Shown here in pieces: positions 2,454 through 60,604 of a stretch of DNA of 64,000 bases; the first letter of the stretch is position 1; the number at the start of each line of letters is the position of its first letter. The stretch is taken from contig VMSX01000009.1 of the NCBI GenBank assembly GCA_013791905.1, positions 1 through 64,000 on the forward strand. Direction: 5' to 3'. A program made the translations under genes and the position numbers. The notes under the pieces are model-generated. The model worked only from the letters and a program-made list of their open reading frames with translations. It did not search any database and was not told where the DNA came from. The DNA comes from Rhodocyclaceae bacterium (GTDB taxonomy: Bacteria; Pseudomonadota; Gammaproteobacteria; Burkholderiales; Rhodocyclaceae).

Positions 2454-2508
2454 CGCTGCCCCCCACGGGGGGGCGCATGCCTCCTTGGGGCGGCCCGGCG
2501 GAGGCAGC
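2454..2508 (+). repeat. tandem-hairpin repeat, copy G, overlapping the nosD ribosome site
   Basis: A C-rich/G-rich hairpin is followed by a second hairpin at 2478-2506. The second has stem TGCCTCC/GGAGGCA and the 15-nt loop TTGGGGCGGCCCGGC. The right arm contains GGAGG, the only good Shine-Dalgarno for the nosD ATG at 2509. It is a copy of the family seen at 14236, 26388, 43320, 44396, 51188, 54460 and 60446, here in sense orientation after the NosB-like gene. Confidence 0.75.
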
Positions 2509-3903
2509 ATGAGCCTGCCACGCGCCCTGCTGCCGCTGCTGGCGCTGGGCATCTCGACGCTGCTGGTCGCGGCGGAGAGCGGCGGGGAGATTGGCTGGCG
2601 CGGGGTCACCGAACCGCAGACCGTGGTGCCGCAACCCGGCACGACAGCCGACATGGGCACCGCGCCGCGCGTCGACGTCGACCGGCCCAAACCTTTTTTC
2701 ATGCTGCGCGATCGAGACAAACGCGTGCATGGCCTCAAGCCTTTTCAGCAATTGGTCGATGCCGCACCGGCCGGTTCGGTGCTGAAGCCGCCACCGGGCA
2801 TCTATGCCGGCCCGGTGCTTGTCGATAAGCCGCTGACCATCGACGGCGGCGGCCGGGTCACCATCGATGCCGGCGACAAGGGCACGGTATTCGAGCTGCG
2901 GGCCGACGGCGCCGTGCTGCGCGGACTGCGCCTGACCGGTTCCGGCGAATCGCACGACACCGACGACAGTTGCCTCGACGTCCGGGGCCACAACAACCGC
3001 ATCGAAAACCTGGTCATCGACAACTGCCTGTTCGGCATCGATCTCAAGCAATCCAGCGACAGCACGCTGCGCGGCAACAAAATCAGATCAAAACCGTTCG
3101 ACCTCGGCATGCGTGGTGACGGCCTGCGCCTGTGGTACAGCCACCGCAACCTGATCGAGAATAACGAAGTAGTCGACACGCGCGACATGGTCGCGTGGTA
3201 TTCGAACGACAACATCTTTCGCGGTAATGTCGGCAAACGCAGCCGTTATTCCATCCACTTCATGTTTGCCAACAACAACATTGTCGAGAACAATCTCTTT
3301 CACGACAATGCCGTCGGCGTTTACTTCATGTACATGGAGGGCGGCGCCGCCCGCAACAACGTTATTTCCAACGCGACTGGCGCGGCCGGCATGGCTTTCG
3401 GCTTCAAGGAGTCGAGCAACATCGAGGTATCCGGCAACGAGATCATCTACTGCGCCGTCGGCGTCGGCTCTGATCTCTCGCCCTTTCAGCCCGACACCAC
3501 CATCCGCTTCAGCCGCAATCGCTTCGCCTACAACGGCATCGCCGTGCAGTTCACCAGCGAACTGGGCGGCAACGTGCTGACGGATAACGTCTTCGAGGGT
3601 AATCTGACCGACGTGTTTCAAGGCGGGCGTGGCAAAGGCGACAAGAACCGCTGGAGCGGCAACTACTACGATACCTATCAGGGCTTCGACCGCGACAACA
3701 ACGGGGTCGGTGACACGCCGCACGAGAACTACGCCTACGCCGACCGCCTGTGGATGGAAATTCCCGCCGCGCGCTTTTTCAGGACATCGCCGGTACTCGA
3801 ACTGCTCGATTTCCTGGAGCGCCTGGCACCCTTCTCCACGCCTGAAATGCAGATGCGCGACGCCAAACCGCGCTTCACCAAGCCGGAGATCGGACGCGCA
3901 TGA
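2509..3903 (+). CDS. nosD: NosD, periplasmic copper-site assembly protein
   Basis: A 464-residue exported protein with a signal peptide (about 1-21, ending VAA) and a long right-handed parallel beta-helix (carbohydrate-binding/sugar-hydrolysis, CASH, repeats rich in NN, GN and EN turns) from about residue 90 to 400. NosD works with the NosFY ABC transporter in building the copper-sulfide centre of NosZ in the periplasm. The frame is open far upstream, but only the ATG at 2509 gives a signal peptide, and it has GGAGG 3-8 bases before it. It overlaps nosG by four bases (ATGA). A clear paralogue lies at 12259. Confidence 0.93.
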   Translation: MSLPRALLPLLALGISTLLVAAESGGEIGWRGVTEPQTVVPQPGTTADMGTAPRVDVDRPKPFFMLRDRDKRVHGLKPFQQLVDAAPAGSVLKPPPGIYAGPVLVDKPLTIDGGGRVTIDAGDKGTVFELRADGAVLRGLRLTGSGESHDTDDSCLDVRGHNNRIENLVIDNCLFGIDLKQSSDSTLRGNKIRSKPFDLGMRGDGLRLWYSHRNLIENNEVVDTRDMVAWYSNDNIFRGNVGKRSRYSIHFMFANNNIVENNLFHDNAVGVYFMYMEGGAARNNVISNATGAAGMAFGFKESSNIEVSGNEIIYCAVGVGSDLSPFQPDTTIRFSRNRFAYNGIAVQFTSELGGNVLTDNVFEGNLTDVFQGGRGKGDKNRWSGNYYDTYQGFDRDNNGVGDTPHENYAYADRLWMEIPAARFFRTSPVLELLDFLERLAPFSTPEMQMRDAKPRFTKPEIGRA

Positions 3904-4844
3904 GCGACGACAAACGGCTCCCCGCCGACGCAACCCCGGCAGCCCCGGCAACCAACGGCGCGACCAAGAAAGTCGGCGCTGGCGGAACGCCGCCGCTGTC
4001 CAAGGAACGCCGCCAGCAGGCGCGGCGCCGCGTGCTGCGCACCATCCTGCTGACGGGCGGAGTCATGGGGGCGGCGCTGTCCGGTTTTCTGCCGCTGATC
4101 TATACGCAGAAGCAGCGGCTGCGGCCGCCCGGCGCGCTTGACGAGAAGGATTTTCTGTCGAGCTGCATCAAATGCGGCCAGTGCGTGCAGGTCTGCCCGG
4201 TATCGGCCATCAAGCTGGCCGACCTGGTGGATGGTATTGGCGTTGGTGCGCCCTACATCGACGCCCGTGCGCAAGCCTGCGATTTCTCCTGCGATGCCGT
4301 GCAATGCATCCTGGCCTGTCCGACCGGATCGCTGACTTACGAAAAACCGGACTTTCTGTCGGTACGCGCCGGCGCCGCGATGGCCACCAAACCGATTCTG
4401 CTGGCCAAGGAACAGGATGCCGAACCGACGCTCAACCTCGCCGAACGCATCGGCGTGGCGCGCCTGACGCGGCCTGAAATTTGTCTCGCTATCCAGGGCA
4501 AGGGGTTCAAGGGCCAGGCGCGTGGTTCCGCTTTCAAGGGTCGGCTGCGCTACATGGATGTGGACCGCTGGAAGCCGATCAAGGTTGCCGATCATCCCTA
4601 CGATGTCGCCGAATGCGACCTCTGCGTGCGCGAGTGTCCGGTCAAGGGCGCCATCTCCATCGAGACCGTCTTCGCCTCGGATGGTACCCAACGCAAGTCC
4701 CCGGTGGTGCATGAGCCCTGTGTCGGCTGTGGTGTCTGCGAGATGATCTGCCCGGTCGAGCCGGCCGCCATCGAAATCGTGCCCGGCGAAGTATGGAGAA
4801 CGGCGGCTTCAGAGAAGGCTAGCGTCGGAGCAAATAAATCATGA
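3900..4844 (+). CDS. nosG: NosG, NapG/MauM-type ferredoxin with four [4Fe-4S] motifs
   Basis: A 314-residue iron-sulfur protein. An N-terminal Arg-rich stretch and hydrophobic segment (about 42-68) suggest export or anchoring at the outer membrane face. Four cysteine sets follow: C89-C92-C95-C99, C127-C131-C136-C140, then CDLCVREC and CVGCGVCEMIC sets in the last third. NapG-type proteins pair with NapH-type membrane proteins, and NosGH is the proposed menaquinol-oxidising module of clade II nos systems. Residues 24-28 (KVGAG) are encoded by a copy of the dispersed AAAAGTCGGCGCTGG repeat, inside the variable N-terminus. It overlaps the genes on both sides by four bases. Confidence 0.9.
   Translation: MSDDKRLPADATPAAPATNGATKKVGAGGTPPLSKERRQQARRRVLRTILLTGGVMGAALSGFLPLIYTQKQRLRPPGALDEKDFLSSCIKCGQCVQVCPVSAIKLADLVDGIGVGAPYIDARAQACDFSCDAVQCILACPTGSLTYEKPDFLSVRAGAAMATKPILLAKEQDAEPTLNLAERIGVARLTRPEICLAIQGKGFKGQARGSAFKGRLRYMDVDRWKPIKVADHPYDVAECDLCVRECPVKGAISIETVFASDGTQRKSPVVHEPCVGCGVCEMICPVEPAAIEIVPGEVWRTAASEKASVGANKS
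3968..3994 (+). repeat. short dispersed repeat (AAAGTCGGCGCTGG core) inside nosG
   Basis: The core is followed by CGGAACGCCG and is read in frame as KVGAGGTPP near the NosG N-terminus, a region that varies between homologues. Related copies are at 6722, 16035, 30031, 36538, 50675, 55813, 56948 and 60608. Confidence 0.6.
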
Positions 4845-5824: not shown

Positions 5825-5867
5825 ATCAAATGCGGATGGGGCGGATGCCCGTAAAATCTGCCTCATC

Positions 5868-7255: not shown

Positions 7256-7268
7256 GGGCAAGCAAGCA

Positions 7269-12262: not shown

Positions 12263-13503
12263 AACTACCCGGTTATTTGCTGGCAGTGTGCGTCCTGCCG
12301 GCGCTGGCGGCGGCGCCCGTGCCTCTGCAGCCCCTGATCGACGCAACCCCGGCGGGCGGCACATTGCGCCTGGCGCCGGGTGCCTACGCCGGTCCGGCAG
12401 CGATCCATAAACCAATGACCCTGGATGGCGGGCGTCGGGCCGTCATCATTGGCGATGGCAAAAGCACGGTGTTGTCCGTCGCCACGAATGGCGCGACCCT
12501 GCGCGGCCTGCGCCTGACCGGCAGCGGGGACTCACATGACCGGGTCGACGCCGGCATTCTGCTGGAAGGCGACAATCACCGTGTCGAGGACAACGAAATT
12601 GACGATGTCCTGTTCGGCATCCATCTCAAGCAGGTCAATCACTCGCGGGTTGCCGCCAACCGGATTACCGGCAAGCCGCTTGATCTGGCCATGCGCGGTG
12701 ATGCCATTCGCGTTTGGTACAGCCGCCACAATCTCATTGAAGGCAATCACTTCACCCGCGCGCGCGACCTGACCTTTGCCAACTCGGCGGACAACCGGAT
12801 TGTCGGCAATCGTTTTACGGATGGGCGCTACGGCATGCAAATCATTTTTTCGCCACGCCTGCTGGTCGAAAACAACCGGCTGGCGCATACCGGCACCGGC
12901 ATCGTCGTGCTCTATTCGCCCGGCCTGATCCTGCGCGGCAACCATGTGGCCCACGCCCTCGGCGGCGGTGGCGGGGGCATTGTGTTCAAGGAGAGCGACG
13001 ACGCCCTGGTCGAGAACAACACAGTGCTGCACTGCACGGTGGGGCTCAAGGTCGATGCGCCGCCGCAGTCCGCCGGCGCGCTGACGGTCAGGAACAACCG
13101 CTTTGCACACAACATCATCGGCCTGTTCTTTTACGGCGAAGCGGGCGGCCATCGCTTCTTCGACAACCGGTTCGAGAACAACCTGAGCACGGTGGCGATC
13201 AGCGCACCGGGCGCCGGCAGTGCCAATGTCTGGCGCGGCAATTACTGGGATGACTATCAGGGCTTTGATCGCAATGGCGACGGCATTGGCGACACGCCGC
13301 ACGAGATATATCTGTTTGCCGACCGCATCTGGATGGAAACACCGATGGCGACCTTCTTTCGCAACTCGCCGGTACTGGAATTGCTGGATTTCCTGGAGCG
13401 GCTGGCGCCTTTTTCGGCACCCCACCGGGTCCTGATCGATCCGGTGCCGGATTTGCGCAGCCACTTTCCGCCCCCCCGCCACAAGGAGACCAAGGACCGA
13501 TGA
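12259..13503 (+). CDS. second NosD-like parallel beta-helix protein
   Basis: A 414-residue exported protein with a signal peptide (about 1-19, ending ALA) and CASH-type beta-helix repeats. It is a clear paralogue of NosD at 2509: both share the APGAYAGP/PPGIYAGP opening, the YQGFDR...DGIGDTPHE/GVGDTPHE segment and the near-identical NSPVLELLDFLERLAPFS tail. The ATG at 12259 overlaps the transporter stop; an upstream GTG is less likely because it would precede the signal peptide. No second nosF or nosY is near, so it would share the upstream ABC transporter or act on another copper or haem protein. Confidence 0.88.
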   Translation: MKLPGYLLAVCVLPALAAAPVPLQPLIDATPAGGTLRLAPGAYAGPAAIHKPMTLDGGRRAVIIGDGKSTVLSVATNGATLRGLRLTGSGDSHDRVDAGILLEGDNHRVEDNEIDDVLFGIHLKQVNHSRVAANRITGKPLDLAMRGDAIRVWYSRHNLIEGNHFTRARDLTFANSADNRIVGNRFTDGRYGMQIIFSPRLLVENNRLAHTGTGIVVLYSPGLILRGNHVAHALGGGGGGIVFKESDDALVENNTVLHCTVGLKVDAPPQSAGALTVRNNRFAHNIIGLFFYGEAGGHRFFDNRFENNLSTVAISAPGAGSANVWRGNYWDDYQGFDRNGDGIGDTPHEIYLFADRIWMETPMATFFRNSPVLELLDFLERLAPFSAPHRVLIDPVPDLRSHFPPPRHKETKDR

Positions 13504-14237
13504 AACGCACCACATTCCGCGCAGGATTTGCACCGTTGCGCCTGCTCGGCGTTGCCGCAAGCGCCCTGCTGCTCGGCACTGCCACCACGAACGGCGCCGA
13601 ACTCCCCGGCCAGCAAGACAGCGGCAAGGAAATCAACGGCCCGTGCGCCGCCTGTCACGGCGACCAGGGGCAAGGGGGGAAGCGTGGCGAGTATCCCCGA
13701 CTGGCCGGGCAGCGCGCGGCTTATCTCGAAGATTCACTGAAAAAATTTCGCACCCGTGAGCGCCTCAACCTGCCCATGCTGCCCTACACACAGGAACGTG
13801 AACTGTCGGACACGGATATCAAGCTGGTTTCGGCCTATCTGGCGGGCATCACCCTGCAAACCACGTTTCCCGACTTCAAGGATACCGACGATGCGCTGAC
13901 GCGTCTGGAAGCGATGGAAAAGGTCATGATCATCCCGAAGCTGGAGGGCGACCTGGACAACGGCAAGACGATCTACGAGAAAGAGTGCGCCGATTGTCAT
14001 GGCAAAACCGGCAAGGGCACCTGGCGTTATCCAATGCTGGTCGGGCAATACACAAATTACCTGCAACGGCAGATGGATGCCTATCTCAGGGGCGAACGGG
14101 CCCACGACATGGACGCCGACGAGGCAGATGAAGTAGAAAAACTCAAGGCCAAACCCATAGAGGTCGGTGTACTCGGCCGGCTGACGAAAAAAGACATCGA
14201 CGACATCCTTGCCTACATTACCCGACTGCAGGACTAA
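13500..14237 (+). CDS. dihaem cytochrome c, c4-type
   Basis: A 245-residue exported protein with a signal peptide (about 1-32) and two haem motifs, CAACH (about 50-54) and CADCH (about 163-167), each followed by GKxG and a YPRLAGQ or YPMLVGQ element as in cytochrome c4. Its layout parallels the dihaem cytochrome at 623. It overlaps the second nosD by four bases, so a nosD plus dihaem cytochrome pair occurs twice in the cluster. It is probably a periplasmic electron carrier; its partner is unknown. Confidence 0.9.
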   Translation: MKRTTFRAGFAPLRLLGVAASALLLGTATTNGAELPGQQDSGKEINGPCAACHGDQGQGGKRGEYPRLAGQRAAYLEDSLKKFRTRERLNLPMLPYTQERELSDTDIKLVSAYLAGITLQTTFPDFKDTDDALTRLEAMEKVMIIPKLEGDLDNGKTIYEKECADCHGKTGKGTWRYPMLVGQYTNYLQRQMDAYLRGERAHDMDADEADEVEKLKAKPIEVGVLGRLTKKDIDDILAYITRLQD

Positions 14238-14430
14238 CTTTCATGATGCGGGGGCGTAGCCCCCGCATCATGAAAGACCCCCGCCCCCCTTCGCCCCCCT
14301 CGCGGGGTGTTCTAGACGGCTCGCTGCGCTCGGCTATCACGGGGCGCGGTGATTCGGGGTCGGAGCGGATTGCGGCTTTCGCCGCGTGCCGCGTTTGCTT
14401 GGGGCGGCCCGGCGCAAACGCTGCGTTTTC
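14236..14430 (+). repeat. tandem-hairpin repeat, copy A
   Basis: Non-coding stretch between convergent genes. It contains the C-rich CCCCCTCGCGGGG block, TCGCTGCGCTCG and ATCACGGGG blocks, hairpin GCGGC-TTTC-GCCGC, linker GTGCC, then a hairpin at 14391-14421 with stem GCGTTTGC/GCAAACGC and loop TTGGGGCGGCCCGGC. It is in sense orientation to the upstream cytochrome gene. Confidence 0.8.
14238..14276 (+). terminator. long perfect hairpin ending the nos/quinone cluster
   Basis: Arms CTTTCATGATGCGGGGGC and GCCCCCGCATCATGAAAG pair over 18 bases around a GTA loop, starting directly after the TAA of the last gene. It has no long T run, but a stem this strong is likely to end or protect the transcript. 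A related imperfect hairpin with the same outer arms follows the ferredoxin gene at 26390. Confidence 0.7.
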
Positions 14431-14444: not shown

Positions 14445-15329
14445 TCAATGCTGGCGCATCGACAGGGCCGCGCCGAGCCAGCCCAACAGCGCGGCGCCGC
14501 CCAGCAGCACGGCGCTTTCCGCTGCCGTCGGCAGCGTCAGCATGAGATCCAGCCCGTACAGGCGGGCGATTTCGGCCACCGGCAAGCGCAGCCAGAGCGT
14601 GGCGGCGCTGACGATCAGCCAGGCCATGGCCCCGCCCAGCAGGCCCAGCATTCCGCCGTACCAGAGGAAGGGGCGGCGAATGAAGGCGTCGGTGGCGCCC
14701 AGCAGGCGACTGACCTCCACCTCGCTCTGGCGCGACAGTACCTGCAGGCGGATGGTGTTGAAGGTAATGGTGACGAGACCGATGCCAAGCAGCGTGGCGA
14801 GCAACAGTACGCCGGTATTCGCCAGTCTGACCAGTGCATGCAGCCGGCGTGCCCAGTCGGCATCGATCTGCACATGTTCAACATCGCGCCATTGGCGCAC
14901 GATGGTGGCCAGACGTTCGATGGCGGCAGGACTGTCGTCGGCAGGCGTGACAACAATCGCATCGGGGAAGGGGTTTTTCGGCAGCGCCGCTATCGCATCG
15001 GCCAGTCCCTCGGTTGCCTTCATGCGCGTGAGCGTGTCCTCGCGGGCGAGCATTTGCGTTTTGGCGACCCCCGACAAACCCTGCAAGCGCAGCTCTACCC
15101 CCTGCGACAGCTTGCGCTCGGCGTCGACCGCAAGAAAGACGGTCACTTGGGGGGTTGGCGAGGCGCTCCGGGTCAGGGCGCTCAGATGCGTCAGCAACAA
15201 GTGGCCGCCGGCTGGCAATGCCAGGGCGACCCCGATCCCCAGCAGTGCCAGCAGGGTATTCAGGGGGGCCGCTGCCAGACGTGCCAAAGCGCGGCGACAG
15301 GCGTTCCAGTGGGCGAAAAGCCAGTTCAT
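14445..15329 (-). CDS. ftsX: FtsX, cell-division ABC transporter membrane protein
   Basis: A 294-residue membrane protein. One N-terminal helix follows MNWLFAHWNACRRALARL, then comes a periplasmic loop (FtsX extracellular domain) and three C-terminal helices. FtsX works with FtsE to activate peptidoglycan amidases at the septum. An upstream in-frame start would add 28 residues that belong to the ftsE-ftsX junction; the ATG at 15329 gives the family's usual beginning. It follows ftsE by 22 bases. Confidence 0.9.
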   Translation of the reverse strand: MNWLFAHWNACRRALARLAAAPLNTLLALLGIGVALALPAGGHLLLTHLSALTRSASPTPQVTVFLAVDAERKLSQGVELRLQGLSGVAKTQMLAREDTLTRMKATEGLADAIAALPKNPFPDAIVVTPADDSPAAIERLATIVRQWRDVEHVQIDADWARRLHALVRLANTGVLLLATLLGIGLVTITFNTIRLQVLSRQSEVEVSRLLGATDAFIRRPFLWYGGMLGLLGGAMAWLIVSAATLWLRLPVAEIARLYGLDLMLTLPTAAESAVLLGGAALLGWLGAALSMRQH

Positions 15330-26387: not shown

Positions 26388-26389
<2 letters not shown>

Positions 26390-26582
26390 CTTTCATGATG
26401 CGCAGGCTATGCCTCCGATCATGAAAGACGCCCATCCCCCCTTCGCCCCCCTCGCGGGGGGTTCTAAACGGCTCGCTACACTCGTTTATCACGGGACGCA
26501 GTATTGTGCTTGGGTGCGGATTGCGGCTGGCGCCGCGTGCCGCGTTTGCTTGGGGCGGCCCGGCGCAAACGCTGCGTTTTTA
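26388..26582 (+). repeat. tandem-hairpin repeat, copy B
   Basis: Between the convergent ferredoxin and mutM genes. It has the same block order as copy A: C-rich block, CGCTACACTCG, ATCACGGG, hairpin GCGGC-TGGC-GCCGC, GTGCC, then a hairpin at 26542-26572 with stem GCGTTTGC/GCAAACGC and loop TTGGGGCGGCCCGGC. It is in sense orientation to the ferredoxin gene. Confidence 0.8.
26390..26427 (+). terminator. hairpin at the ferredoxin stop
   Basis: CTTTCATGATGCGCAGGC pairs imperfectly with GCCTCCGATCATGAAAG around TAT. The outer arms are the same as those of the hairpin at 14238, and both begin right after a TAA stop. Confidence 0.6.
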
Positions 26583-26610: not shown

Positions 26611-27477
26611 TCAGCGCTGACAGCGCGGGCAGTAAAAGCTTGAGCGCTGCCCTTGTCGAATCGCCCTGATCGGGCTGCCGCAGTTCAGACAGGGCTCCCC
26701 CGCCCGGTCATAAACCTTGTGGCGGGTCTGGAAGTCGCCCATGCCGCCATCGGTCCCACGAAAATCTCGCAGGGTGCTGCCACCGGCCCGGATGGCGGCG
26801 CGCAGCGTTGTTTGAATGGCGGGCACCAGGCGGCCCAGACGCTTGAGGGACACCCGGCCGGCAGGCGTACGCGGGTCGATGCCGGCGTCGAACAGGCTTT
26901 CCGCTGCATAGATGTTGCCAACGCCGACGACCAGGCCGGAATCCATCAGCGCCGGCTTGATTGCCAAGCTGCGGCCCTTGAGTGCCTGCTGCAGCCAGCC
27001 CGGCGTAAATGCGCGCGACAAGGGTTCGATGCCCAGCTTGGCGATCAGCGGATGCGCCAGCGGATCGCCGGCCAGCCACAACAATGCACCAAACCGGCGC
27101 GGATCAGTGAGCCGCAGCACCTGTTTGCCGAAGACGAAATCGGCATGGTCGTGTTTTTCCGGTGGGGTGCCGGGCACGACGAAGCGCAGGCTGCCCGACA
27201 TGCCCAGATGAATCAGCAGGTGGCCGTTGTCAAAACGAAGTTTCAGAGAAGACTCATGCCCGCTTGCGGGCGTGATGGCGGAACTAAAATCGAGCAACAG
27301 GTACTTGCCGCGCCGTTTTGCCTCGACCAGCGTGCGGCCTGCGAGGTTACGGGCCAAGCCGGCGGGTATCGGATAACGCAAAGCCGGCGTTCGCAGGACG
27401 GCGCGATCGATCCTGGCACCCTCAACCCGTTGGGCAATGCCCCGGCGCGTGACTTCGACCTCAGGCAGCTCGGGCAT
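26611..27477 (-). CDS. mutM: MutM, formamidopyrimidine-DNA glycosylase
   Basis: A 288-residue base-excision repair enzyme. It begins MPELPEVEVTRRGI, with the catalytic Pro2 and Glu3; the central MDSGLVVGVGNIYAAESLF and a C-terminal zinc finger (CLNCG ... FYCPRCQR) are present. It removes 8-oxoguanine and cleaves the strand. It is divergent from the TPR gene, with a 71-base shared upstream region. Confidence 0.96.
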   Translation of the reverse strand: MPELPEVEVTRRGIAQRVEGARIDRAVLRTPALRYPIPAGLARNLAGRTLVEAKRRGKYLLLDFSSAITPASGHESSLKLRFDNGHLLIHLGMSGSLRFVVPGTPPEKHDHADFVFGKQVLRLTDPRRFGALLWLAGDPLAHPLIAKLGIEPLSRAFTPGWLQQALKGRSLAIKPALMDSGLVVGVGNIYAAESLFDAGIDPRTPAGRVSLKRLGRLVPAIQTTLRAAIRAGGSTLRDFRGTDGGMGDFQTRHKVYDRAGEPCLNCGSPIRAIRQGQRSSFYCPRCQR

Positions 27478-31907: not shown

Positions 31908-32579
31908 ATGCAATTTGAAATCAACGCCAACAAACGCGAACTGCAGGGATCGAGTGCGAGCCGCCGCCTGCGTCGTGCCGGCCGGGTTCCCGGCATCATC
32001 TATGGCGGCCCTACCGCTCCGCAAATGATCGAGTTCGAGCACAACGTCATTTTCCAGGCGCTGCGCAAGGAAGCCTTCCGCTCTTCGGTCGTCAACATGA
32101 GCATCGACGGCAAAGTGGAAATGTGCCTGCTGCGCGACGTGCAGATGCATGCCTTCAAGCTGCAGATCAAGCACGTCGATTTCCAGCGCATCGATGCCAC
32201 TCACGAAATTCACCAGAAGGTGCCGCTGCACTTCATCAATGCCGAAATCGCTCCGGGCGTCAAACTCGGCGGCGGCATGGCGCACCATGGCATGAACGAA
32301 CTCGATGTCACCTGCCTGCCCAAGGATCTGCCTACGTTCATCGAGGTCGACCTCAAGGATCTGAACGTTGGCGAATCGGTCTACCTCTCCCAAATCAAGC
32401 TGCCTGCCGGTGTGACGGCGGCATTCCATGGCGAGGGCGACCCCGTTGTGGCCGGCATCGTCATGGTTGGCGCCACTACCACGGAGGAAGTGGAGACCGA
32501 AGCTGCACCGATTGAAACCCAGGTCACCACTGAGAAGAAACCGGCGGCAGAAGCCGAGAAGAAAGCCGAGAAGAAGTAA
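31908..32579 (+). CDS. rplY: ribosomal protein bL25, CTC (long) form
   Basis: A 223-residue protein. The N-terminal 5S rRNA-binding domain (SSASRRLRRAGRVPGIIYGG) is followed by the C-terminal beta domain of the long TL5/CTC form (KVPLHFINAEIAPGVKLGGG). It ends in a Lys/Glu/Ala-rich tail with KKAEKK. The ATG at 31908 is preceded by CTGGAG. Confidence 0.96.
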   Translation: MQFEINANKRELQGSSASRRLRRAGRVPGIIYGGPTAPQMIEFEHNVIFQALRKEAFRSSVVNMSIDGKVEMCLLRDVQMHAFKLQIKHVDFQRIDATHEIHQKVPLHFINAEIAPGVKLGGGMAHHGMNELDVTCLPKDLPTFIEVDLKDLNVGESVYLSQIKLPAGVTAAFHGEGDPVVAGIVMVGATTTEEVETEAAPIETQVTTEKKPAAEAEKKAEKK

Positions 32580-32632
32580 TGCTGCCGCAGGGCCGTCCCA
32601 CGGCGGCCCGGTTGCCGAGCGAGGCGCGATAA

Positions 32633-43075: not shown

Positions 43076-43548
43076 TCGCCGCAGCCCAGAATATGCCACG
43101 GTGGGTAACCGCAGCGTAAAAATCGCGTAGCACCCGGTTCCTGCAGTGCGCCTACCCAAACGCACTGAAAGGAGAACCGGCCATGGCGTTCCGGAATGAA
43201 GTTTAGCCGCAAGCCGCGGCCCACCGCCAGCCGCGCGCCAAGCTGCAAGTTGTCCTGGCAACGAGCGCATCCGAAATACTCGCGGCGCAGAAACTGCGCT
43301 GGCGGGACGACGCCCATCAGCAAACCCCGCAGTCTCGCCGCCGGGCCGCCCCAAGGCGAGACGGCACGCGGCGAAAGCCGCAATCCGCTCCCAAGCATGA
43401 ACGGGGCTCCCCGTAACAAACGAGCGCAGCGACAACAAGCGACGCAGTCGCGCTGTTGCGGCGAAGGCTAATGCCGGCCTGGCCGGCGTTAAGCCGCACA
43501 GCGGCGGCCGGAGGCAAAAACCAAATTATCCCCGGGAGGGGGCGGGCC
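43076..43548. other. intergenic region between the GGDEF gene and apaH
   Basis: 473 bases without a supportable gene. A ribosome site and ATG at 43179 open only seven codons (MAFRNEV). 43320-43431 is copy E of the tandem-hairpin repeat. GCGCTGGCGGGACGACGCC near 43299 resembles part of the other dispersed repeat. Open frames on the - strand run through the repeat and have no recognisable product. Confidence 0.5.
43320..43431 (-). repeat. tandem-hairpin repeat, copy E
   Basis: Read on the - strand it has CGCTGCGCTCG, TTACGGGG, hairpin GCGGC-TTTC-GCCGC, GTGCC, then a hairpin at 43332-43362 with stem GTCTCGCC/GGCGAGAC and loop TTGGGGCGGCCCGGC. It is in sense orientation to apaH, whose stop is at 43549. 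Confidence 0.8.
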
Positions 43549-44385
43549 TTACTGCCAGCCCGTTGGTCTGGACAGTTGTCCGCATGGCATCTGGAAGACC
43601 CGGCGGTCCTCGAGCCGCACTGCCGTCAGGCTGCCGCCCCACAGGCAGCCGGTATCCAGCGCCAGCAGCGCGTCGGTCTGTCTGAAACCGAGGGCGGACC
43701 AGTGGCCGCAGACGATGGTGTGATCGGCACTTTTGCGGCCGGGTGCGTCGAACCACGGCACGCAGTCCGCTGGGCCGCGCTCCGGCGGCCCCTTGGCGCC
43801 AGGCGCGCGAAATTCCATGCGGCCGTCGGCGGTGACGAAGCGCATGCGCGTCATGGCATTCACCACCACGCGCAGCCGGTCCCAGCCGGCGAGGTCGTCG
43901 CGCCAGCCGTCCGGCTCGGAGCCCCACATATTGGCCAGAAACTCGCGATAGTCGGGCGAGGAGAGTGCTGCCGAGGCTTCGTCCGACAGTGCCTGCGCCT
44001 GCGCGACATCCCATCCTGGCAGCAGCCCGGCATGCACCATGGCCATGCTTCCTTCGACATGAAACAGCGGGAGCGCGCGTAACCAGTCCATCAGTTCATC
44101 GCGGTCGGGTGCCGCCAGAATGGGGTCGAGCGTGTCTTCCTTGCTGGCCTTGCCGTATCCCGCGGATTGCATGAGCAGATGCAGGTCGTGATTGCCGAGC
44201 ACGCTGACCGCCGCGTTGCCGAGCCCCTTGACGAAGCGCAACACCTCCAGCGATTGCGGGCCGCGATTCACCAGGTCGCCGACAAACCAGAGCCGATCCG
44301 CTGCGGGGGAAAAATCCAGGTAGTCGAGCAGGCTGGCCAGCGGGTCGTAGCAGCCCTGCAAATCGCCGATTGCGTAGGTGGCCAT
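43549..44385 (-). CDS. apaH: ApaH, symmetrical diadenosine tetraphosphatase
   Basis: A 278-residue metallophosphatase. It has [14 protein letters not shown] (GDxxG), [14 protein letters not shown] (GDxxxRG), [10 protein letters not shown] (GNHD) and [10 protein letters not shown] near the end. It splits Ap4A into two ADP. The ATG at 44385 is taken as the start because MATYAIGDL is the family beginning; the frame is open eight codons further. A decayed tandem-hairpin repeat (44396) sits in its leader. Confidence 0.95.
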
Positions 44386-44395
44386 GTGCTCAGCC

Positions 44396-44446
44396 GCTCG
44401 CCGGGGCACCCCAAGGGAGGCGACGCCCCCCTGTGGGGGGCAGCAA
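44396..44446 (-). repeat. tandem-hairpin repeat, copy H (decayed) in the apaH leader
   Basis: On the - strand CCCCCC-ACA-GGGGGG is followed by TTGGGGTGCCCCGGC, the family loop with changes. The stem around the loop is only partly paired. Like copy G before nosD, it ends a few bases before a start codon, and it is in sense orientation to both yggT upstream and apaH. Confidence 0.6.
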
Positions 44447-44475
44447 AATGAATGGATGAGCGCGCGGGGTCATTC

Positions 44476-45042
44476 TTAGGGACTGAACATCAGCGCCGGC
44501 TGCAGGCTGGCCAGCACGACGAGCGCCACTTGCAGCAGCAGCAGCACGACCAGCGGCGAGAGGTCGACGCCGCCCAGCGTCGGCAGCAGGCGGCGCACCG
44601 GATTCAGCAGCGGGCGGGCGAGCGCGTCGAACAGGGGGGCGAAGGGCGAGTAGGGGTTGATCCACGACAGCAGCGCGGCGATGATCACCACGCCCATCAG
44701 CAGATAAACGGCCATGCGCAGCACGGCGAGAAATGACAGCCAGAGCAAGCCCGGAATGATGTCCGGCCCCGCTGCCAGCATACCGGTCAGGCCCGCCATC
44801 ACCGCGAAATAGACGATTTGCGTCAGCCAGGCGGCAAACACGCTGGCCAGGTCGATGCCGAACAGCCCGGGGATCACGCGCCGCAACGGCAGGACCGCCC
44901 AGTTGGTCAGTGCCGTGATGAACTGGCCGACCGGATTGCGAAACGGCGCGCGCGTCAGCTGCAGCAGGGTGCGGGCCAGGAAGGCGGTGGTCAGCAGGCC
45001 GGCGGCGGTGCCCAGCAGCAGGGAAACGATTTGCGCCAGCAT
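44476..45042 (-). CDS. yggT: YggT-family membrane protein
   Basis: A 188-residue inner-membrane protein with two YGGT domains, each with paired helices and the motifs RNPVGQFITALTNWAVLPLRR and LNPVRRLLPTLGGVDLSP. It follows proC with a one-base overlap (TGATG), a conserved pairing. Functions proposed for the family include osmotic tolerance and septation, but none is settled. Confidence 0.92.
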   Translation of the reverse strand: MLAQIVSLLLGTAAGLLTTAFLARTLLQLTRAPFRNPVGQFITALTNWAVLPLRRVIPGLFGIDLASVFAAWLTQIVYFAVMAGLTGMLAAGPDIIPGLLWLSFLAVLRMAVYLLMGVVIIAALLSWINPYSPFAPLFDALARPLLNPVRRLLPTLGGVDLSPLVVLLLLQVALVVLASLQPALMFSP

Positions 45043-49440: not shown

Positions 49441-50724
49441 TCAGCCGGGGGGCGCGCCCTTCGGCGAACGGGCGCTGCCGGCGACCATCGGGAACCCGTA
49501 TAAGCGGCACTCGAGCGCACCGTTGTAAAGCGGGGTGCGGCGGGCTGGCTTGAGTCCGATCAGTTTGGGCAGATGCGGGTCGGCCGAAAGAAACCAGCAG
49601 TGCCAGCCGGCAAAGCGCTTTTTCAGGGCATCGCCCAGTTGCGGATAAAAGGCGTCAAGCGAGGTGGCTTCACCCAGTCGCTCGCCATAGGGCGGGTTGG
49701 CGATCAGGATGCCGCCGCTGTTGCCAACAATTGTTGGCGGGTCGATTTCCAGCAGATCGGCGCGGCGCACCTCGATCAGATCGTCGAGGCCGGCATGCGC
49801 CAGATTTTGCCGGGTGCGCGCCACCGCATCATCGTCAATGTCGCTGCCCCAGATCTGCAGGCGGGGTGGGGCGGGCACGCGCCGTTCAGCGGCTGCCATG
49901 CACAGCTTGCGCCACAGCGCCGGTTGGTAATTGGCGAGTCGGGTAAACCCGAAATCCTGCATGTCGCGCGCCAGTCCTGGCGCGTCGCCGAGCGTCATGC
50001 CGGCCGCCTCGAGCAATAGCGTGCCGGAGCCGCACATCGGGTCGAGCAGGGGTTGTCCGGGCGTCCAGCCCGCCAGCCGCAGTATGCCGGCAGCGAGATT
50101 TTCCTTGAGTGGCGCGGCCACCTTGGCAATCTTCTGGCCGCGCAGCCACAGCGGCTCGCCCGAAGTGTCAAGGTAGAGCGTGGCGGTCTTTTCGGTGACA
50201 AACAGATGGATGCGTACCGCCGGGTCTGCGGTATTCACGTCTGGCCGCCGGCCGCAATCGGCGCGGAAACGGTCGCAAACGGCATCCTTGACCTTCAGCG
50301 TGATGAACTCGATGCTCTTGAATGGCGCGCGCACGGCCGTGACATAGACGCGGATGCTGTAGTCAACATTGAACAACTTTGGCCACGCCACGCCATGGGT
50401 CAACGCGTATACATCGGCTTCGTTGCGATAGTCTCCACTGGCGACGCGCCACAACACGCGCGTGGCGATGCGCGATTCCAGATTTACCCGATAGCAGGTC
50501 TCCCAGTTTCCAGAAAAACTTGCGCCGCCCGGTGTTGCCGCCACCTGCTGGCCGCCGGCTGCACCGATATCCTCGACCAGCAATTCCTCAAGTCCGCGCG
50601 GGCAGGTCGCAAAGAATGCTTCGCCGCGCGGGCCGTGCGATTGCACTGCCGCGTGCGCTTCACGTGGTTGACGGGAAAATCGGCGCTGGTGGGACGGCGG
50701 CGGAGCGGGAGTAGCGGGCTTCAA
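49441..50724 (-). CDS. THUMP-domain RNA methyltransferase, RlmL-like
   Basis: A 427-residue enzyme. After a Pro/Arg-rich N-terminus (1-35) come a THUMP-type domain (FFATCPRGLEELLVEDI ... about 36-150), a methyltransferase domain with LLDPMCGSGTLLLEAA and the catalytic ILIANPPYGERLG. It corresponds to the RlmL half of E. coli RlmKL (23S rRNA G2445 N2-methylation). The TTG at 50724 is the furthest start; a later GTG near residue 27 is possible, since the first residues are partly a copy of the dispersed repeat (SHQRRFS region). The TTG overlaps the stop of the HemJ gene. Confidence 0.85.
   Translation of the reverse strand: MKPATPAPPPSHQRRFSRQPREAHAAVQSHGPRGEAFFATCPRGLEELLVEDIGAAGGQQVAATPGGASFSGNWETCYRVNLESRIATRVLWRVASGDYRNEADVYALTHGVAWPKLFNVDYSIRVYVTAVRAPFKSIEFITLKVKDAVCDRFRADCGRRPDVNTADPAVRIHLFVTEKTATLYLDTSGEPLWLRGQKIAKVAAPLKENLAAGILRLAGWTPGQPLLDPMCGSGTLLLEAAGMTLGDAPGLARDMQDFGFTRLANYQPALWRKLCMAAAERRVPAPPRLQIWGSDIDDDAVARTRQNLAHAGLDDLIEVRRADLLEIDPPTIVGNSGGILIANPPYGERLGEATSLDAFYPQLGDALKKRFAGWHCWFLSADPHLPKLIGLKPARRTPLYNGALECRLYGFPMVAGSARSPKGAPPG
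50675..50699 (-). repeat. dispersed repeat copy near the RlmL-like N-terminus
   Basis: On the + strand GAAAATCGGCGCTGGTGGGACGGCG matches the family core with one base lost from AAAAGTCGG. In the gene it is read in the reverse direction and encodes part of the variable N-terminal PSHQRRF. Confidence 0.5.
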
Positions 50725-51143
50725 TACGGTTTCACCACGACGAGGATGCAGATGGCTATCAGCGCCAGCACCGGCACCTCATTGAAGAAGCGGAACCAGA
50801 CATGGGAATGCCGGTTCTTTCCGGCGACAAACGCTTTCAGCAGCCAGCCGCAATACAGGTGGTAGGCTATCAGCCCGGTCACCAGCGCGATCTTGGTATT
50901 CAGCCAGCCGCCGGCGAAACCGTAGCCGAGCCACAGCCACAGGCCGCCAGCAACTGCCAATACGCCGAGCGGTGTGACGAAGCCGTAGAGCTTCCGCGCC
51001 ATCACCAGCAAGCGCTCGTGCTCTGCGCTGCTGTTGTCAGGCACCATCGCCAGGTTGACAAAGATGCGCGGCAGATAGAACAGTCCGGCAAACCAGCCGA
51101 CGACAAAGAAGATGTGAAAGGCTTTCACCCAGAGCATGAGCAT
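50721..51143 (-). CDS. hemJ: HemJ-type protoporphyrinogen IX oxidase
   Basis: A 140-residue membrane protein with four helices. It begins MLMLWVKAFHIFFVVGWFAGLFYLPR, with the conserved His (AFHIF), and has the YGFVTPLGVLAVAGGLWLW and RFFNEVPVLAL helices typical of HemJ (UPF0093). It oxidises protoporphyrinogen to protoporphyrin in haem synthesis. The ATG at 51143 gives the family start; the frame extends upstream through a repeat. It overlaps the methyltransferase gene by four bases. Confidence 0.9.
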   Translation of the reverse strand: MLMLWVKAFHIFFVVGWFAGLFYLPRIFVNLAMVPDNSSAEHERLLVMARKLYGFVTPLGVLAVAGGLWLWLGYGFAGGWLNTKIALVTGLIAYHLYCGWLLKAFVAGKNRHSHVWFRFFNEVPVLALIAICILVVVKPY

Positions 51144-51187: not shown

Positions 51188-51345
51188 CCCCCAGTAGTCT
51201 CGCCGCCGGGCCGCCCCAAGGCGAGACGGCACGCGGCGTTAGCCGCAAGCCGCGCCACAGCCGATACGAAGCCGCCCGTAACAGACGAGCGCAGCGAGCC
51301 ACAGTCACCTCCCCTGCGAGGGGGAGGATGGGATGGGGAGGGTGT
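51188..51345 (-). repeat. tandem-hairpin repeat, copy F
   Basis: Read on the - strand: CCCCCTCGCAGGGG block, CGCTGCGCTCG, TTACGGG, hairpin GCGGC-TAAC-GCCGC, GTGCC, then a hairpin at 51197-51227 with stem GTCTCGCC/GGCGAGAC and loop TTGGGGCGGCCCGGC. It follows the epimerase-like gene (ends at 51346) in sense orientation and precedes hemJ. Confidence 0.8.
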
Positions 51346-52260
51346 CTACTCCCGCGCGGGAGGGGTTGGTGGAGAACGGGCCACAACAGCGTCGGCGATG
51401 CCGATATCCACCGTCGGGTAACGCAGCCGCAATTTTAGCTCGCGCTTCATGCGCGTGTTTTCCAGCCGCCGCGACTCGCCCATGAACGAAAGCAGCATGG
51501 GTGACAGTTGCGCGCGCACCTCCTCGCGCGTGGCGCGTGGTGGCCGGGGCAGGGCGAAGGCATCGGCCAGCTTGTCGAACCAGTCGCCCATCAGCAAGGC
51601 CGAGTCGTCGCAGATGTTGTAGGCGCGATTGGCGCCGCCGCGTTCCAGCGCCACGACGCAGGCATGGGCCAAATCCTCGGCATGAATGTGATTGGTAAAG
51701 ACGTCAGCGCCCGGCACCAGCAGCGGGTCGCCACGGCGGATGCGTTCAAGCGGCAGGCGGTCGGCGGCATAGATGCCGGGTGCGCGCAGGATGCTGATCT
51801 GCGTCCGGCTGCGCCGGCCGAAGCCACGCAACAGTCCTTCGGCAGCAACGCGGCGCCGCGCGCGGGCGGTGGTGGCAGCCAGCGGTCGCGTTTCGGGCAC
51901 GTGGGCGCCGCCACAATTGCCATACACCCCGGTGGTGCTGATGTAGACAATGCGGCGTGGTAAGCTTCGCGCGTTTGCCAGCGTCGCCAGCAGACGTTGT
52001 GTACGCGGGTCGCCGCTGCCGGTTCCGGGCGGTGGGGCGCTGTGTAGCACAGCGTGCGCCAGCCCTGCCAGACGACGCAGGGTAGCGGGTTGGTCAAGGT
52101 CGCCACAGATTTGTTTCACGCCCAGGATATGCAGGGCCGGGTCGAGTTCACGCACCAGCGCGAAGACCCGCCAGTGGCGCGTCAAGGCAGGCAGCGCGCG
52201 ACGTACGACGTCGCCGCAACCCACGATCAACAAGCTTCTCGGCAACCTTCTTTTTTTCAC
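51346..52260 (-). CDS. NAD-dependent epimerase-like protein (YeeZ-type SDR)
   Basis: A 304-residue extended short-chain dehydrogenase-type protein. Its Rossmann start is LLIVGCGDVVRRALPAL, it has YISTTGVYGNCGG (the Ser/Tyr catalytic region) and a mid-protein FTNHIHAEDLAHACV. It resembles YeeZ-type proteins, whose substrate is unknown. The last ten residues run into the neighbouring repeat. It is divergent from the reductase at 52275, with only 14 bases between starts. Confidence 0.82.
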   Translation of the reverse strand: MKKRRLPRSLLIVGCGDVVRRALPALTRHWRVFALVRELDPALHILGVKQICGDLDQPATLRRLAGLAHAVLHSAPPPGTGSGDPRTQRLLATLANARSLPRRIVYISTTGVYGNCGGAHVPETRPLAATTARARRRVAAEGLLRGFGRRSRTQISILRAPGIYAADRLPLERIRRGDPLLVPGADVFTNHIHAEDLAHACVVALERGGANRAYNICDDSALLMGDWFDKLADAFALPRPPRATREEVRAQLSPMLLSFMGESRRLENTRMKRELKLRLRYPTVDIGIADAVVARSPPTPPARE

Positions 52261-53310: not shown

Positions 53311-54447
53311 ATGGCAGACACGGCCTTCATTCGCCGCGAGCCGGTTATCAACCGGCACCGGGAGATCATCGCCACCCGGCTGATCGTCCATGCCGACAGC
53401 GCGGCTGCAGCAGCAGCGGCCCTTGGCCAACTAGACAAAGTCTGGCCACCGGTGCGTAGCGTGATGGTGGCGCTGGATGGTTGTTTGCCTACTTCCGATT
53501 TGCTGGCCTGGACGCCGCCCGCCAATGTGATGATCGAAATCCCCGTCCCCGCGCTGGAACAACCGGCGACCCGGGATCTGGTCGCGCGCCTCCACGCCGA
53601 CGGGGTTGCGCTTAGTTTGTCGGGATACGATGGGCGGGCCACCCTGCCGGACGAACCCTTTCGTTTTCTGCTGGCCGACTTCGTGACGCAGCCGCGCTTT
53701 GACGATCCGCCGGCCCTGCCTCTGGCACAGCATCTGGCCGATCTGCCCGCCTTCGACAGCGCGATTGCCAACGGCTATGCCGGTGCAACCGGCTGGTTTT
53801 TCCTGCGCGGCCAACCCGCCTGGGGGCCGCTGAAAACCAGTCACGCCAACACCGTGCGCGTGCTCAATCTGGTGCGCCGGAATGCCGCGGTCGGTGAAAT
53901 CGAGGCGGCCTTGAAGCAGGATGTCACGCTGTCCTTCAAATTGCTCAAATACATCAACTCCCCTGCCTTCGGTCTCGGCAAGGAAATCCAGTCATTCCGC
54001 CACGCCGTCACCTTGCTGGGCTACGACAAGCTCAACAAGTGGCTGTCGCTGCTGCTGGTTACCGCCAGCAAGAGCCCGACCGCTCCGGCCTTGATGCAGA
54101 CGGCTATCGCGCGCGGTCGTTTCATGGAAACCATTGGCGCCGGCCGTTTCGATGCGGGCCAGCGCGACAGCCTGTTCATCGCGGGCGCCTTTTCGCTGCT
54201 CGACATGCTGCTGGCGGCGCGCATGGACGATATCCTCGCCGCAATGCAACTCCCCGCCGTCATCACGGACGCGTTGATCGGTCGCACGGGGGAGTTCGCG
54301 CCCTACCTGGCCCTGGCGCTGGCCTGCGAGAATGAAAACCCCGCCTTACTGATCGAGCTGGCTGGCCAGCTCGATTTGTCGGCGACGACGGTGAATCGCG
54401 CTCAGCTGGAGGCACTGGCCTTCGCCGACGGATTGCAGCTCGACTGA
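53311..54447 (+). CDS. EAL-like/HDOD domain signalling protein (YuxH type)
   Basis: A 378-residue protein. The N-terminal half resembles a degenerate EAL-fold domain (FIRREPVINRHREIIATRLIV ... no EAL catalytic motif seen). The C-terminal half is an HDOD domain (AVGEIEAALKQDVTLSFKLLKYINSP ... FRHAVTLLGYDKLNKWLSLLL). Such YuxH-type proteins are signalling regulators without c-di-GMP hydrolysis. The start is set at the ATG at 53311, 22 bases after the reductase; the open frame extends into that gene. Confidence 0.88.
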   Translation: MADTAFIRREPVINRHREIIATRLIVHADSAAAAAAALGQLDKVWPPVRSVMVALDGCLPTSDLLAWTPPANVMIEIPVPALEQPATRDLVARLHADGVALSLSGYDGRATLPDEPFRFLLADFVTQPRFDDPPALPLAQHLADLPAFDSAIANGYAGATGWFFLRGQPAWGPLKTSHANTVRVLNLVRRNAAVGEIEAALKQDVTLSFKLLKYINSPAFGLGKEIQSFRHAVTLLGYDKLNKWLSLLLVTASKSPTAPALMQTAIARGRFMETIGAGRFDAGQRDSLFIAGAFSLLDMLLAARMDDILAAMQLPAVITDALIGRTGEFAPYLALALACENENPALLIELAGQLDLSATTVNRAQLEALAFADGLQLD

Positions 54448-54459
54448 GCCAAAAAAACA

Positions 54460-54606
54460 CCCGCCCCCCTTCGCCCCCCTCGCGGTGGGTTCTGTATGGT
54501 TCGCTACGCTCGGCTGTCACGGGGCGCGGTGGTTCAAGGTCGGCGCGGATTGCGGCTGGCGCCGCGTGCCGCGTTTGCTTGGGGCGGCCCAGCGCAAGCG
54601 CTACAG
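54460..54606 (+). repeat. tandem-hairpin repeat, copy C
   Basis: C-rich CCCCCTCGCGGTGGG block, CGCTACGCTCG, GTCACGGGG, hairpin GCGGC-TGGC-GCCGC, GTGCC, then a hairpin at 54571-54601 with stem GCGTTTGC/GCAAGCGC (one G-T) and loop TTGGGGCGGCCCAGC. It lies between the convergent HDOD and recA genes, in sense orientation to the HDOD gene. Confidence 0.8.
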
Positions 54607-54625: not shown

Positions 54626-55702
<1,077 letters not shown>

Positions 55703-57685: not shown

Positions 57686-57698
57686 GCCGCGCCTGACC

Positions 57699-58954: not shown

Positions 58955-58971
58955 TGCACATTCTCCGTGCA
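58955..58971 (+). promoter_or_regulatory. NtrC-type enhancer site upstream of urtA
   Basis: TGCAC-N7-GTGCA (TGCACATTCTCCGTGCA) matches the NtrC consensus GCAC-N7-GTGC exactly in both half sites and in spacing. It lies about 125 bases upstream of the -24/-12 promoter, a usual distance for a looping activator. Urea uptake is typically nitrogen-controlled, so this fits its gene. Confidence 0.6.
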
Positions 58972-59092
58972 TAGGTCACGTCGCCGCCCCAAAAGAGGGC
59001 GTACCAGATGCGTCCCTGCCAGCGCCTGTCAATGGCGGGCATTGCCGCTCTGCAAGGGGCTTCAGGATAATTTAAAAGTTCCAGGATGCGCC

Positions 59093-59108
59093 TGGCACGG
59101 AATTCGCT
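59093..59108 (+). promoter_or_regulatory. sigma-54 (-24/-12) promoter of urtABCD
   Basis: TGGCACGGAATTCGCT matches the sigma-54 consensus TGGCACG-N4-TTGCW at all positions but one, with the GG and GC elements exactly ten bases apart. Transcription would begin near 59119, giving a leader of about 58 bases before the urtA ATG. An AT-rich patch (59065-59081) between it and the NtrC-type site could bind IHF. Confidence 0.7.
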
Positions 59109-59176
59109 CATCAGTTCCCCGTAGCCCACTGCGCAACCGCGCCAACTTCTTCTCATCCTCATAAGGGAGCCCATTT

Positions 59177-60445
59177 ATGCATCGTCGCAACTTCGTCAAG
59201 GCCACCGCCGTTACCGTTGCACTCGCCGTTGCCGGTTTCATTTCAGCACCTGCGCTTGCCGCCGACACCATCAAGGTCGGCATCCTCCACTCGCTGTCGG
59301 GCACGATGGCAATTTCCGAAACCGCGCTCAAAGAAACGGCGCTGATGACCATTGCGGAAATCAACGCCAAGGGCGGGGTAATGGGCAAACAGCTGGAGGC
59401 GGTAGTCGTCGATCCGGCCTCGAACTGGCCGTTGTTCGCCGAAAAGTCGCGCCAGCTGCTGACGCAGGACAAGGTGGCGGTCGTCTTCGGCTGCTGGACC
59501 TCGGTGTCGCGCAAGTCGGTGAATCCGGTGTTCAAGGAACTCAATGGCCTGCTGTTCTATCCCGTGCAGTATGAAGGCGAGGAACTCGAGAAGAACGTTT
59601 TCTACACCGGTGCCGCGCCCAACCAGCAGGCGATTCCCGCTGTCGAATATCTGATGAGCAAGGACGGCGGCTCGGCCAAGCGCTTCGTGCTGCTCGGTAC
59701 CGACTACGTCTATCCGCGCACCACCAACAAGATCCTGCGCGCCTTCCTGAAGTCGAAGGGCGTTGCCGATGCCGACATCATGGAGGACTACACGCCATTC
59801 GGCCACAGCGATTACCAGACCATCATCGCCAAGATCAAGAAATTCGCTTCCGAGGGCAAGAAGACGGCGGTGATCTCGACCATCAACGGCGACTCCAACG
59901 TGCCCTTCTACAAGGAACTGGGTAATGCCGGCCTGAAGGCCACCGACGTGCCGGTGGTCGCCTTCTCGGTGGGCGAGGAGGAACTGCGCGGCGTCGACAC
60001 CAAGCCGCTGGTGGGCCACCTGGCTGCCTGGAATTATTTCCAGTCGGTGAAGAACCCGACCAACGATGCGTTCATCAAGATGTACCGGGACTGGGCGAAG
60101 AAGCAGAAGCTGCCGAATGCCGACACGGCGGTGACCAACGACCCGATGGAAGCCACCTACGTCGGCATTCACATGTGGAAGCAGGCGGTCGAGAAGGCCA
60201 AGAGCACCGATGTGGACAAGGTCATTGCAGCAATGGGCGGGCAGACCTTCAAGGCGCCATCCGGCTTCGAAATCAAGATGGACGAGAAGAACCACCATCT
60301 GCACAAGCCGGTGCTGATCGGCGAAGTGAAGGCCGACGGGCAGTTCAATGTGGTGTGGAAGACCAAGGGCCCGATCAAGGCCGCACCGTGGTCGCCCTAC
60401 ATTCCCGGCAACGACAAGAAGAAGGGCGAGCCCGAAGGTAAGTAA
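59177..60445 (+). CDS. urtA: UrtA, urea ABC transporter substrate-binding protein
   Basis: A 422-residue periplasmic protein. The signal peptide (1-28, MHRRNFVKAT...PALAA) resembles a weak Tat leader. The mature part has VGILHSLSGTMAISE, ASNWPLFAEKSRQLL, VFGCWTSVSRKSVNPVF, LLFYPVQYEGEE and FSVGEEELRG, the marks of urea-specific UrtA rather than amide or amino-acid binding proteins. It starts after AAGGGAG. It leads the urt operon under a probable sigma-54/NtrC promoter. A tandem-hairpin repeat sits between it and urtB. Confidence 0.96.
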   Translation: MHRRNFVKATAVTVALAVAGFISAPALAADTIKVGILHSLSGTMAISETALKETALMTIAEINAKGGVMGKQLEAVVVDPASNWPLFAEKSRQLLTQDKVAVVFGCWTSVSRKSVNPVFKELNGLLFYPVQYEGEELEKNVFYTGAAPNQQAIPAVEYLMSKDGGSAKRFVLLGTDYVYPRTTNKILRAFLKSKGVADADIMEDYTPFGHSDYQTIIAKIKKFASEGKKTAVISTINGDSNVPFYKELGNAGLKATDVPVVAFSVGEEELRGVDTKPLVGHLAAWNYFQSVKNPTNDAFIKMYRDWAKKQKLPNADTAVTNDPMEATYVGIHMWKQAVEKAKSTDVDKVIAAMGGQTFKAPSGFEIKMDEKNHHLHKPVLIGEVKADGQFNVVWKTKGPIKAAPWSPYIPGNDKKKGEPEGK

Positions 60446-60604
60446 GCCCGCCCTCCCCCAGCCCCTCCCTCGCGGGAGGGGAGGCTTGGTGCTCGCTGCG
60501 CTCGTCTGTTACGGGGAGGATTGATTGGATGGCGGAGCGGTTGCGCCTTCGGCGCGTGCCGTTTCGCCTTGGGACGGCCCGGCGGCGAAACTGCGGTGTT
60601 TCTC
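60446..60604 (+). repeat. tandem-hairpin repeat, copy D, between urtA and urtB
   Basis: CTCCCTCGCGGGAGGG block, CGCTGCGCTCG, TTACGGGG, hairpin GCGCC-TTC-GGCGC, GTGCC, then a hairpin at 60561-60591 with stem GTTTCGCC/GGCGAAAC and loop TTGGGACGGCCCGGC. It lies inside an operon, unlike most other copies, in sense orientation to urtA. It could reduce transcript passage into urtB, giving more binding protein than permease. Confidence 0.8.

Follow-up and report, generated by a model that had tools for sequence, protein, structure and literature searches.

The 64,000-nt stretch analysed here (the window), positions 1 to 64,000 of contig VMSX01000009.1 from a Rhodocyclaceae bacterium (GCA_013791905.1), belongs to a 3.64-Mb genome in 30 contigs and contains several copies of a short palindromic repeat. 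Our best reading, to which we give a probability of about 0.68, is that this element is small, palindromic, mobile and non-autonomous, and that it belongs to the BRE type (Beta-proteobacterial repeat element) as a new variant whose copies have greatly increased in number in this lineage. Its unit opens with a C-rich stretch, continues with one or two body hairpins and closes with a terminal hairpin, in which a near-fixed inner part, CTTGGGRCGGCCCRGCG, is enclosed by variable, complementary outer arms. The core could be found at 240 places in the genome at up to one mismatch, vs 4 for the reversed pattern, and head-to-tail tandem units are spaced 60 to 122 nt apart. Genomic context was taken from 99 copies on 859,040 bases (24% of the genome) with 710 genes from a home-made caller; some of these stretches were selected as copy-bearing, and the gene calls are unrefined. 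Subfamilies were assigned by patterns, after which nine copies were re-filed by hand, giving 50 A, 16 B, 13 C and 18 D copies with 2 set aside (97 classified).

Comparison with relatives carries the mobile reading. At 30 sites whose two neighbouring genes are also adjacent in a relative, none of the relatives has the core at that place (32 comparisons, up to two mismatches), and the median gap is 176.5 nt here vs 8.5 nt in the relatives, with 4-nt overlaps making up 7 of the 32 gaps. Neighbouring proteins at these sites share 30 to 96% identity, and the median difference at 228 element-free control junctions was 2 nt. Such absence from the matching junctions of relatives is the behaviour of a mobile repeat. 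Some insertions lie within genes: compared with G150, a genome of the same genus, valyl-tRNA synthetase has 27 extra aa and glucose-6-phosphate isomerase 26, both from in-frame D copies, and a gene of the PgeF/YfiH family has 27 from a B copy (these and other gene names, such as nosD, are from NCBIfam). Four reverse cases were also found, with the core in the relative and none here at up to one mismatch, one of which (window 32580-32632) has a weak model match; the ftsX, urtA and most mutM loci in relatives showed no synteny with this genome. Across 19 genomes of the genus, the matches numbered 150, 149, 147, 101, 54, 39, 28, 21, 19, 19, 12, 10, 9, 2, 2, 1, 0, 0 and 0, which are lower bounds because 150 candidates were scored per genome and certain assemblies are 76-90% complete. 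Since the copy number ranges from 0 to at least 150 within one genus, the mover could be findable by comparing species.

It is reasonable to suggest that the presence/absence differences are insertions by a machinery recognising the fixed core, and that selection would remove those that break genes, leaving copies at junctions together with in-frame survivors. A repeat that separates tightly packed genes at many junctions, may provide some of them with a ribosome site carried on its hairpin, and enters essential enzymes in frame would strongly shape both operon structure and protein sequence. Rickettsia palindromic elements, which are described as palindromic repeats that enter protein genes in frame, are a parallel in kind and differ in being about 150 bp long (PMC10969869). 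As a separate observation, two tandem D copies (C1 354053 and 354137, locus L026) are read in frame at the beginning of a called gene of 465 aa, encoding a repeated peptide that ends in KKHLGRPGVFL.

The element was not recognised as a named family in a first-pass annotation of the window, but it probably belongs with BRE, because architecture, hosts and the lexA locus of one Bordetella-genus genome (G409, 4.0 Mb) agree. In the passages that deal with it, Hot et al. (2011) describe BRE as a tandem repeat of about 90 bp, mostly intergenic with some copies within open reading frames (ORFs), and place two repeats between BP1793 and lexA in Bordetella pertussis; this paper on B. pertussis small RNAs leaves the function open there (PMC3110155). 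G409, which we infer to be B. pertussis, contains two core copies 83 nt apart right after the lexA stop (L229). The element agrees with the published account in a unit length of about 75-91 bp in Bordetella, in forming tandem arrays, in being mostly intergenic but also at ORF ends and within coding sequences (CDS), in the overlapping taxa and in the lexA pair; 6 of the 13 Bordetella loci inspected have tandem copies, spaced 74-77 nt apart in five of them and 120 and 143 nt in L121. Differences from BRE are that the paper's own search, as far as those passages report it, gives at most 29 copies per genome (PMC3110155) vs 240 core places here, and that subfamilies A (about 140 nt) and C have other bodies. 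Section 14 of the paper mentions no hairpin structure, core motif, stem covariation, start or stop niches or in-frame fusions. If the element is BRE, TTGGGGCGGCCCGGC would be expected in the published BRE alignment. No further use of the name was found in the literature searched, a literature search with the element's sequence strings returned nothing related by title, and Rfam at gathering score gave a single tRNA in the window.

The exact 15-mer occurs in 66 of the 399 genomes of the order and 46 of its 158 genera, many of these being single copies and possibly chance, whereas 10 or more copies are present in 21 of the 399 genomes, with a maximum of 148 outside this genome. A 17-nt core was found in 3 of 274 class-level genomes, all in this order and one of them our own. 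Within the genomes sampled, the element is confined to a single bacterial order. Named hosts among the matches listed are Achromobacter, Bordetella, Castellaniella, Alcaligenes and Pusillimonas, a group that the search pattern favoured.

The terminal hairpin mostly folds into an outer stem of 8-10 pairs and, with one bulged C, an inner stem UUGGG/CCCGG that closes a GCGG loop, in place of the open 15-nt loop that had been described; a whole 76-nt Bordetella unit gave a different fold in the same folding run. The covariation reported for the stem was borne out, as the outer arms vary with pairing kept in two sets of hairpins. Among 86 exact-core copies of this genome, for which pairing was no selection criterion, 67 distinct stems with 43 different 7-nt arms have 94% of the cells at positions 1-7 paired vs 53.5% after whole-arm shuffling. 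In a second set of 42 hairpins (40 distinct), hand-picked for stem difference and hence a favourable sample, 97.5% of cells are paired vs 71.3% when shuffled and 39-52% when slid, and both sides change in 140 cells vs 41.7 shuffled; the 40 distinct hairpins covary at all eight outer pairs and at none of the five inner pairs. The second hairpin of subfamily A likewise keeps its pairing (GCGGC/GCCGC, GCGCC/GGCGC, GTGGC/GCCAC) in 46 of the 50 A copies caught by the pattern. Because the core is constant across subfamilies and high-copy genomes while the arms are free, our results suggest that the core is what is recognised and that the arms need only pair, in line with the earlier proposal of a recognised fixed part.

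Covariation is also what a cis-acting RNA would show. On this view, which the first-pass annotation had put forward, the hairpin would mark the 3′ end of the upstream gene's transcript, stabilise it or bind a protein, and would be under selection as RNA on that gene's sense strand. The imperfect pairs of 167 stems (23 of 190 were excluded for fewer than 5 of 8 Watson-Crick pairs) comprise 37 G.T vs 50 A.C on the sense strand (binomial p 0.2), and this lack of a G.U excess makes the palindrome look DNA-level rather than RNA selected in one strand. Tandem neighbours also argue against RNA selection: 46 of the 85 adjacent unit pairs have arm differences, with 9 compensated and 92 uncompensated positions, and some arms are degenerate. 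Together with the 30 empty sites, which indicate that the positions are not common to species, and with the subfamilies that lie before starts or inside genes, this speaks against RNA selection as the cause, and we regard such a role as improbable. In a dispersed repeat, then, stem covariation and gene-sense orientation need not imply a functional RNA.

A source of covariation that would be compatible with a mobile repeat, and would concern the arms only, is template-switch correction of imperfect palindromes, and part of the literature on this process describes switching that can yield multibase compensatory changes without RNA selection (PMC8794818). The missing G.U bias fits with it, as does one step in a tandem array that alters four pairs together (L080), but the tandem neighbours differ mostly on one side, and inner T.G mismatches persist (position 13 is G in 93, A in 2 and T in 4 of 99 copies with up to one core mismatch), so that correction would be rare or opposed. 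We hold it to be a possible, though doubtful, main origin of the covariation. In the mobile reading, the arms might be kept as a DNA palindrome via the mover, via this correction, or by a 3′ arm partly derived from the target.

Placement differs among the subfamilies. Subfamily A (n=50) has 20 copies in tandem sense, 2 in tandem antisense, 26 in convergent and 0 in divergent junctions, and 2 inside called genes; 29 of the 39 measurable copies start 0-12 nt past the stop, the others starting 30-35 nt before it (four, in which the called gene runs into the copy), at 41-42 nt (three) or beyond 300 nt (three). Subfamily B (n=16), whose niche is just before starts, has 12 tandem sense and 4 intragenic copies. 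No orientation is preferred by C (n=13: 5 sense, 4 antisense, 1 convergent, 2 divergent, 1 inside a called gene) or D (n=18: 2 sense, 3 antisense, 2 divergent, 11 inside called genes), and 18 of the 97 classified copies lie within called genes. The tight post-stop position of A, its sense bias without divergent copies, and the 12 sense and 0 antisense copies of B could favour an RNA role, and at two sites a copy sits, as judged by eye, between the stop and an apparent older terminator; the orientation-neutral C and D, the latter often within CDS, do not. Most A hairpins have no T-run directly after them by eye, which counts against the RNA alternative and led us to reject an intrinsic terminator; hairpins of the GCGTTTGC type have TTTT(T) some nt further on (by eye).

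The rule that copies always follow a gene in its sense direction thus holds for A, mostly sense and just after stops, and fails for B before starts and for C and D in either direction, D being often intragenic. The odds of 1 in 256 attached to eight equal orientations do not stand either, since four of the eight copies (14399, 26550, 54579 and 43354) are flanked by convergent genes and would follow one of them in sense whichever way they pointed, so that they say nothing about orientation. Nor is placement purely post-stop, as the copy at 2485 and the degenerate site at 44396 also end immediately upstream of a start codon. Of the sense copies, 18 end no more than 25 nt from a start, and in 13 of these a Shine-Dalgarno-like motif follows the core, including 10 of 14 B/C copies, a count biased upward because the caller rewards such motifs in its choice of start. 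Where a copy directly precedes a start, its 3′ arm may provide the following gene with a Shine-Dalgarno sequence. Two convergent junctions, C4b 39325/39424 and C6a 37626/37738, each contain two oppositely oriented A copies about 100 nt apart.

Abundant intergenic hairpins are also characteristic of the REP/RAYT system, and movement of a REP by a RAYT-type Y1 transposase would account for a palindromic, mostly intergenic and abundant repeat. A Y1_Tnp match is present in 17 of the 21 genomes with at least 10 exact copies vs 243 of 399 overall, and the guide-hairpin-target layout resembles IS200/IS605 ends. The enrichment is nevertheless not significant (Fisher p 0.066), the arms here are not conserved, and four of the 21 high-copy genomes, G118 (64 copies), G138, G237 and G352, have no Y1 match. 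In this genome the search gave a single Y1 transposase gene (L049:1147-1866, minus strand), and it is flanked by a different repeat of its own, AAAACCGTGGTCTGACCCC. RAYT/Y1 was therefore rejected as a necessary mover on these last two counts, and we consider movement by it very unlikely.

Some B copies have direct repeats at their flanks. In a first test, the A, B and D copies of this genome fell within the range of 300 shuffles and single copies of other genomes (n=68) above it. When the arms were included, the observed value was reached in 31 of 2000 shuffles for B (n=13), 1491 for A (n=32) and 1200 for D (n=8), zero C copies fitting the start pattern. For singles of other genomes (n=64), many of which are degenerate tandems, it was reached in 0 of 2000, and for a cleaned set (n=42, after removal of 146 with neighbours, 79 without the start motif, 27 at edges and 3 duplicates) in 0 of 5000, or by arm type in 109 and 690 of 5000, a mixed outcome. 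The clearest case is the B copy at C1 120256, where a relative has a single GCCGACTTT in the gene, and here GCCGAGTTT stands before the element and GCCGACTTT opens its 3′ side; GCCGAC of GCCGACTTT pairs with the 5′ arm GTCGGC, the duplicated target thus forming the 3′ arm. At L085 and L198, the 3′ arms are imperfect and similar to the 5′ flank. This raises the unlikely prospect of target-templated hairpins, in which the element would end at the core, the 5′ arm would serve as a guide on the target, and target duplication would make the 3′ arm of host DNA; covariation would then be the footprint of target choice and not of RNA selection.

Several points weigh against a mobile BRE-type repeat. 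No mover was found in a search that covered Y1 transposases alone, and A and D have no flanking direct repeats. A search by eye only revealed no terminal inverted repeats, which together with direct repeats at only part of the copies would set the element apart from miniature inverted-repeat transposable elements (ERIC, Correia, RUP and others); these are likewise short, dispersed and mobile by comparison, according to the passages that cover them (PMC3110155, PMC10969869) and to general background. The placement of A (29 of 39 right after stops; 20 sense vs 2 antisense) also fits an RNA role. Some empty sites may be losses, because 29 of the 30 were compared with G150 and one only with G187. 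The BRE assignment relies on position, architecture and taxa as compared with the published description, and the lexA pair occurs at only 1 of the 14 lexA loci of the Bordetella set. The pair was not found in the first seven genomes checked (Bordetella and Achromobacter). The other lexA loci of the Bordetella set are without it, which is also what the published passages say of Bordetella avium (PMC3110155).

Within the window, the core TTGGGRCGGCCCRGC with a paired stem is present at 2485, 14399, 26550, 54579 and 60569 on the plus strand and at 43354 and 51219 on the minus strand. These seven hairpins have E ≤ 4.5e-11 under a covariance model built from 42 training sequences, themselves included, which gives 14 matches in the window at E ≤ 1. 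Seven of the eight copies first listed are thus real, and the eighth, at 44396, falls short. The copies are as follows:

2426..2506, plus strand: member of subfamily B, flanked by gene 1442-2425 and nosD (2509-3903); the terminal hairpin spans 2478-2506 with the core at 2485-2499, and the 3′ arm GGAGGCA lies directly ahead of the ATG at 2509.
14277..14421, plus strand: member of subfamily A, with the convergent genes 13500-14237 and 14445-15329 on either side; hairpin 14391-14421, core 14399-14413, 5′ end approximate.
26428..26572, plus strand: member of subfamily A, flanked by the gene of a YfhL-type ferredoxin, which ends at 26389, and by mutM (26611-27477, minus strand); hairpin 26542-26572, core 26550-26564, 5′ end approximate.
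43332..43433, minus strand: subfamily A copy without the C-rich start; hairpin 43332-43362, core 43340-43354, far end approximate.
44386..44475 (junction), minus strand: degenerate B-like copy between genes 44476-45042 and 43549-44385 (apaH); core-like 44400-44414 with two mismatches, stem not intact, unmatched by the model at E ≤ 1.
51197..51342, minus strand: member of subfamily A, flanked by two minus-strand genes, 51346-52155 and 50721-51143; hairpin 51197-51227, core 51205-51219.
54458..54601, plus strand: subfamily A copy between gene 53311-54447 and recA (54626-55702, minus strand); hairpin 54571-54601, core 54579-54593, 5′ end approximate.
60446..60591, plus strand: member of subfamily A, flanked by urtA, which ends at 60445, and urtB, which starts at 60640; hairpin 60561-60591, core 60569-60583.

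The counterpart of the 2426..2506 junction in G150 is 1 nt and that of 26428..26572 in G187 is a 6-nt gap, both without the element, and the genes flanking 51197..51342 overlap and are element-free in G150 and G020. A weak model match at 32577-32611 (minus strand, 18.8 bits, E 0.0053) is perhaps a decayed copy; G020 has the element at that junction.

Other small repeats accompany the element. A palindrome of 38-39 nt, CTTTCATGATGCG...CATGAAAG, lies between the stop codon and certain A copies (window 14238-14276 and 26390-26427) and also precedes the A copies C4a 33282 and C4b 22704, looking like a separate small repeat. A second dispersed repeat, built around AAAGTCGGCGCTGGCGGGACGGCG, lies close to genes both here and in G150 (L049:219-260, and the L048 and C6a junctions); its AGCGCCGACTT is found at window 60616-60626 and eight further places, and once, in L037, a repeat of the AAAGTCGGCGCTGGCGGGACGGCG type falls within a gene alignment as an 18-aa stretch absent from G150.

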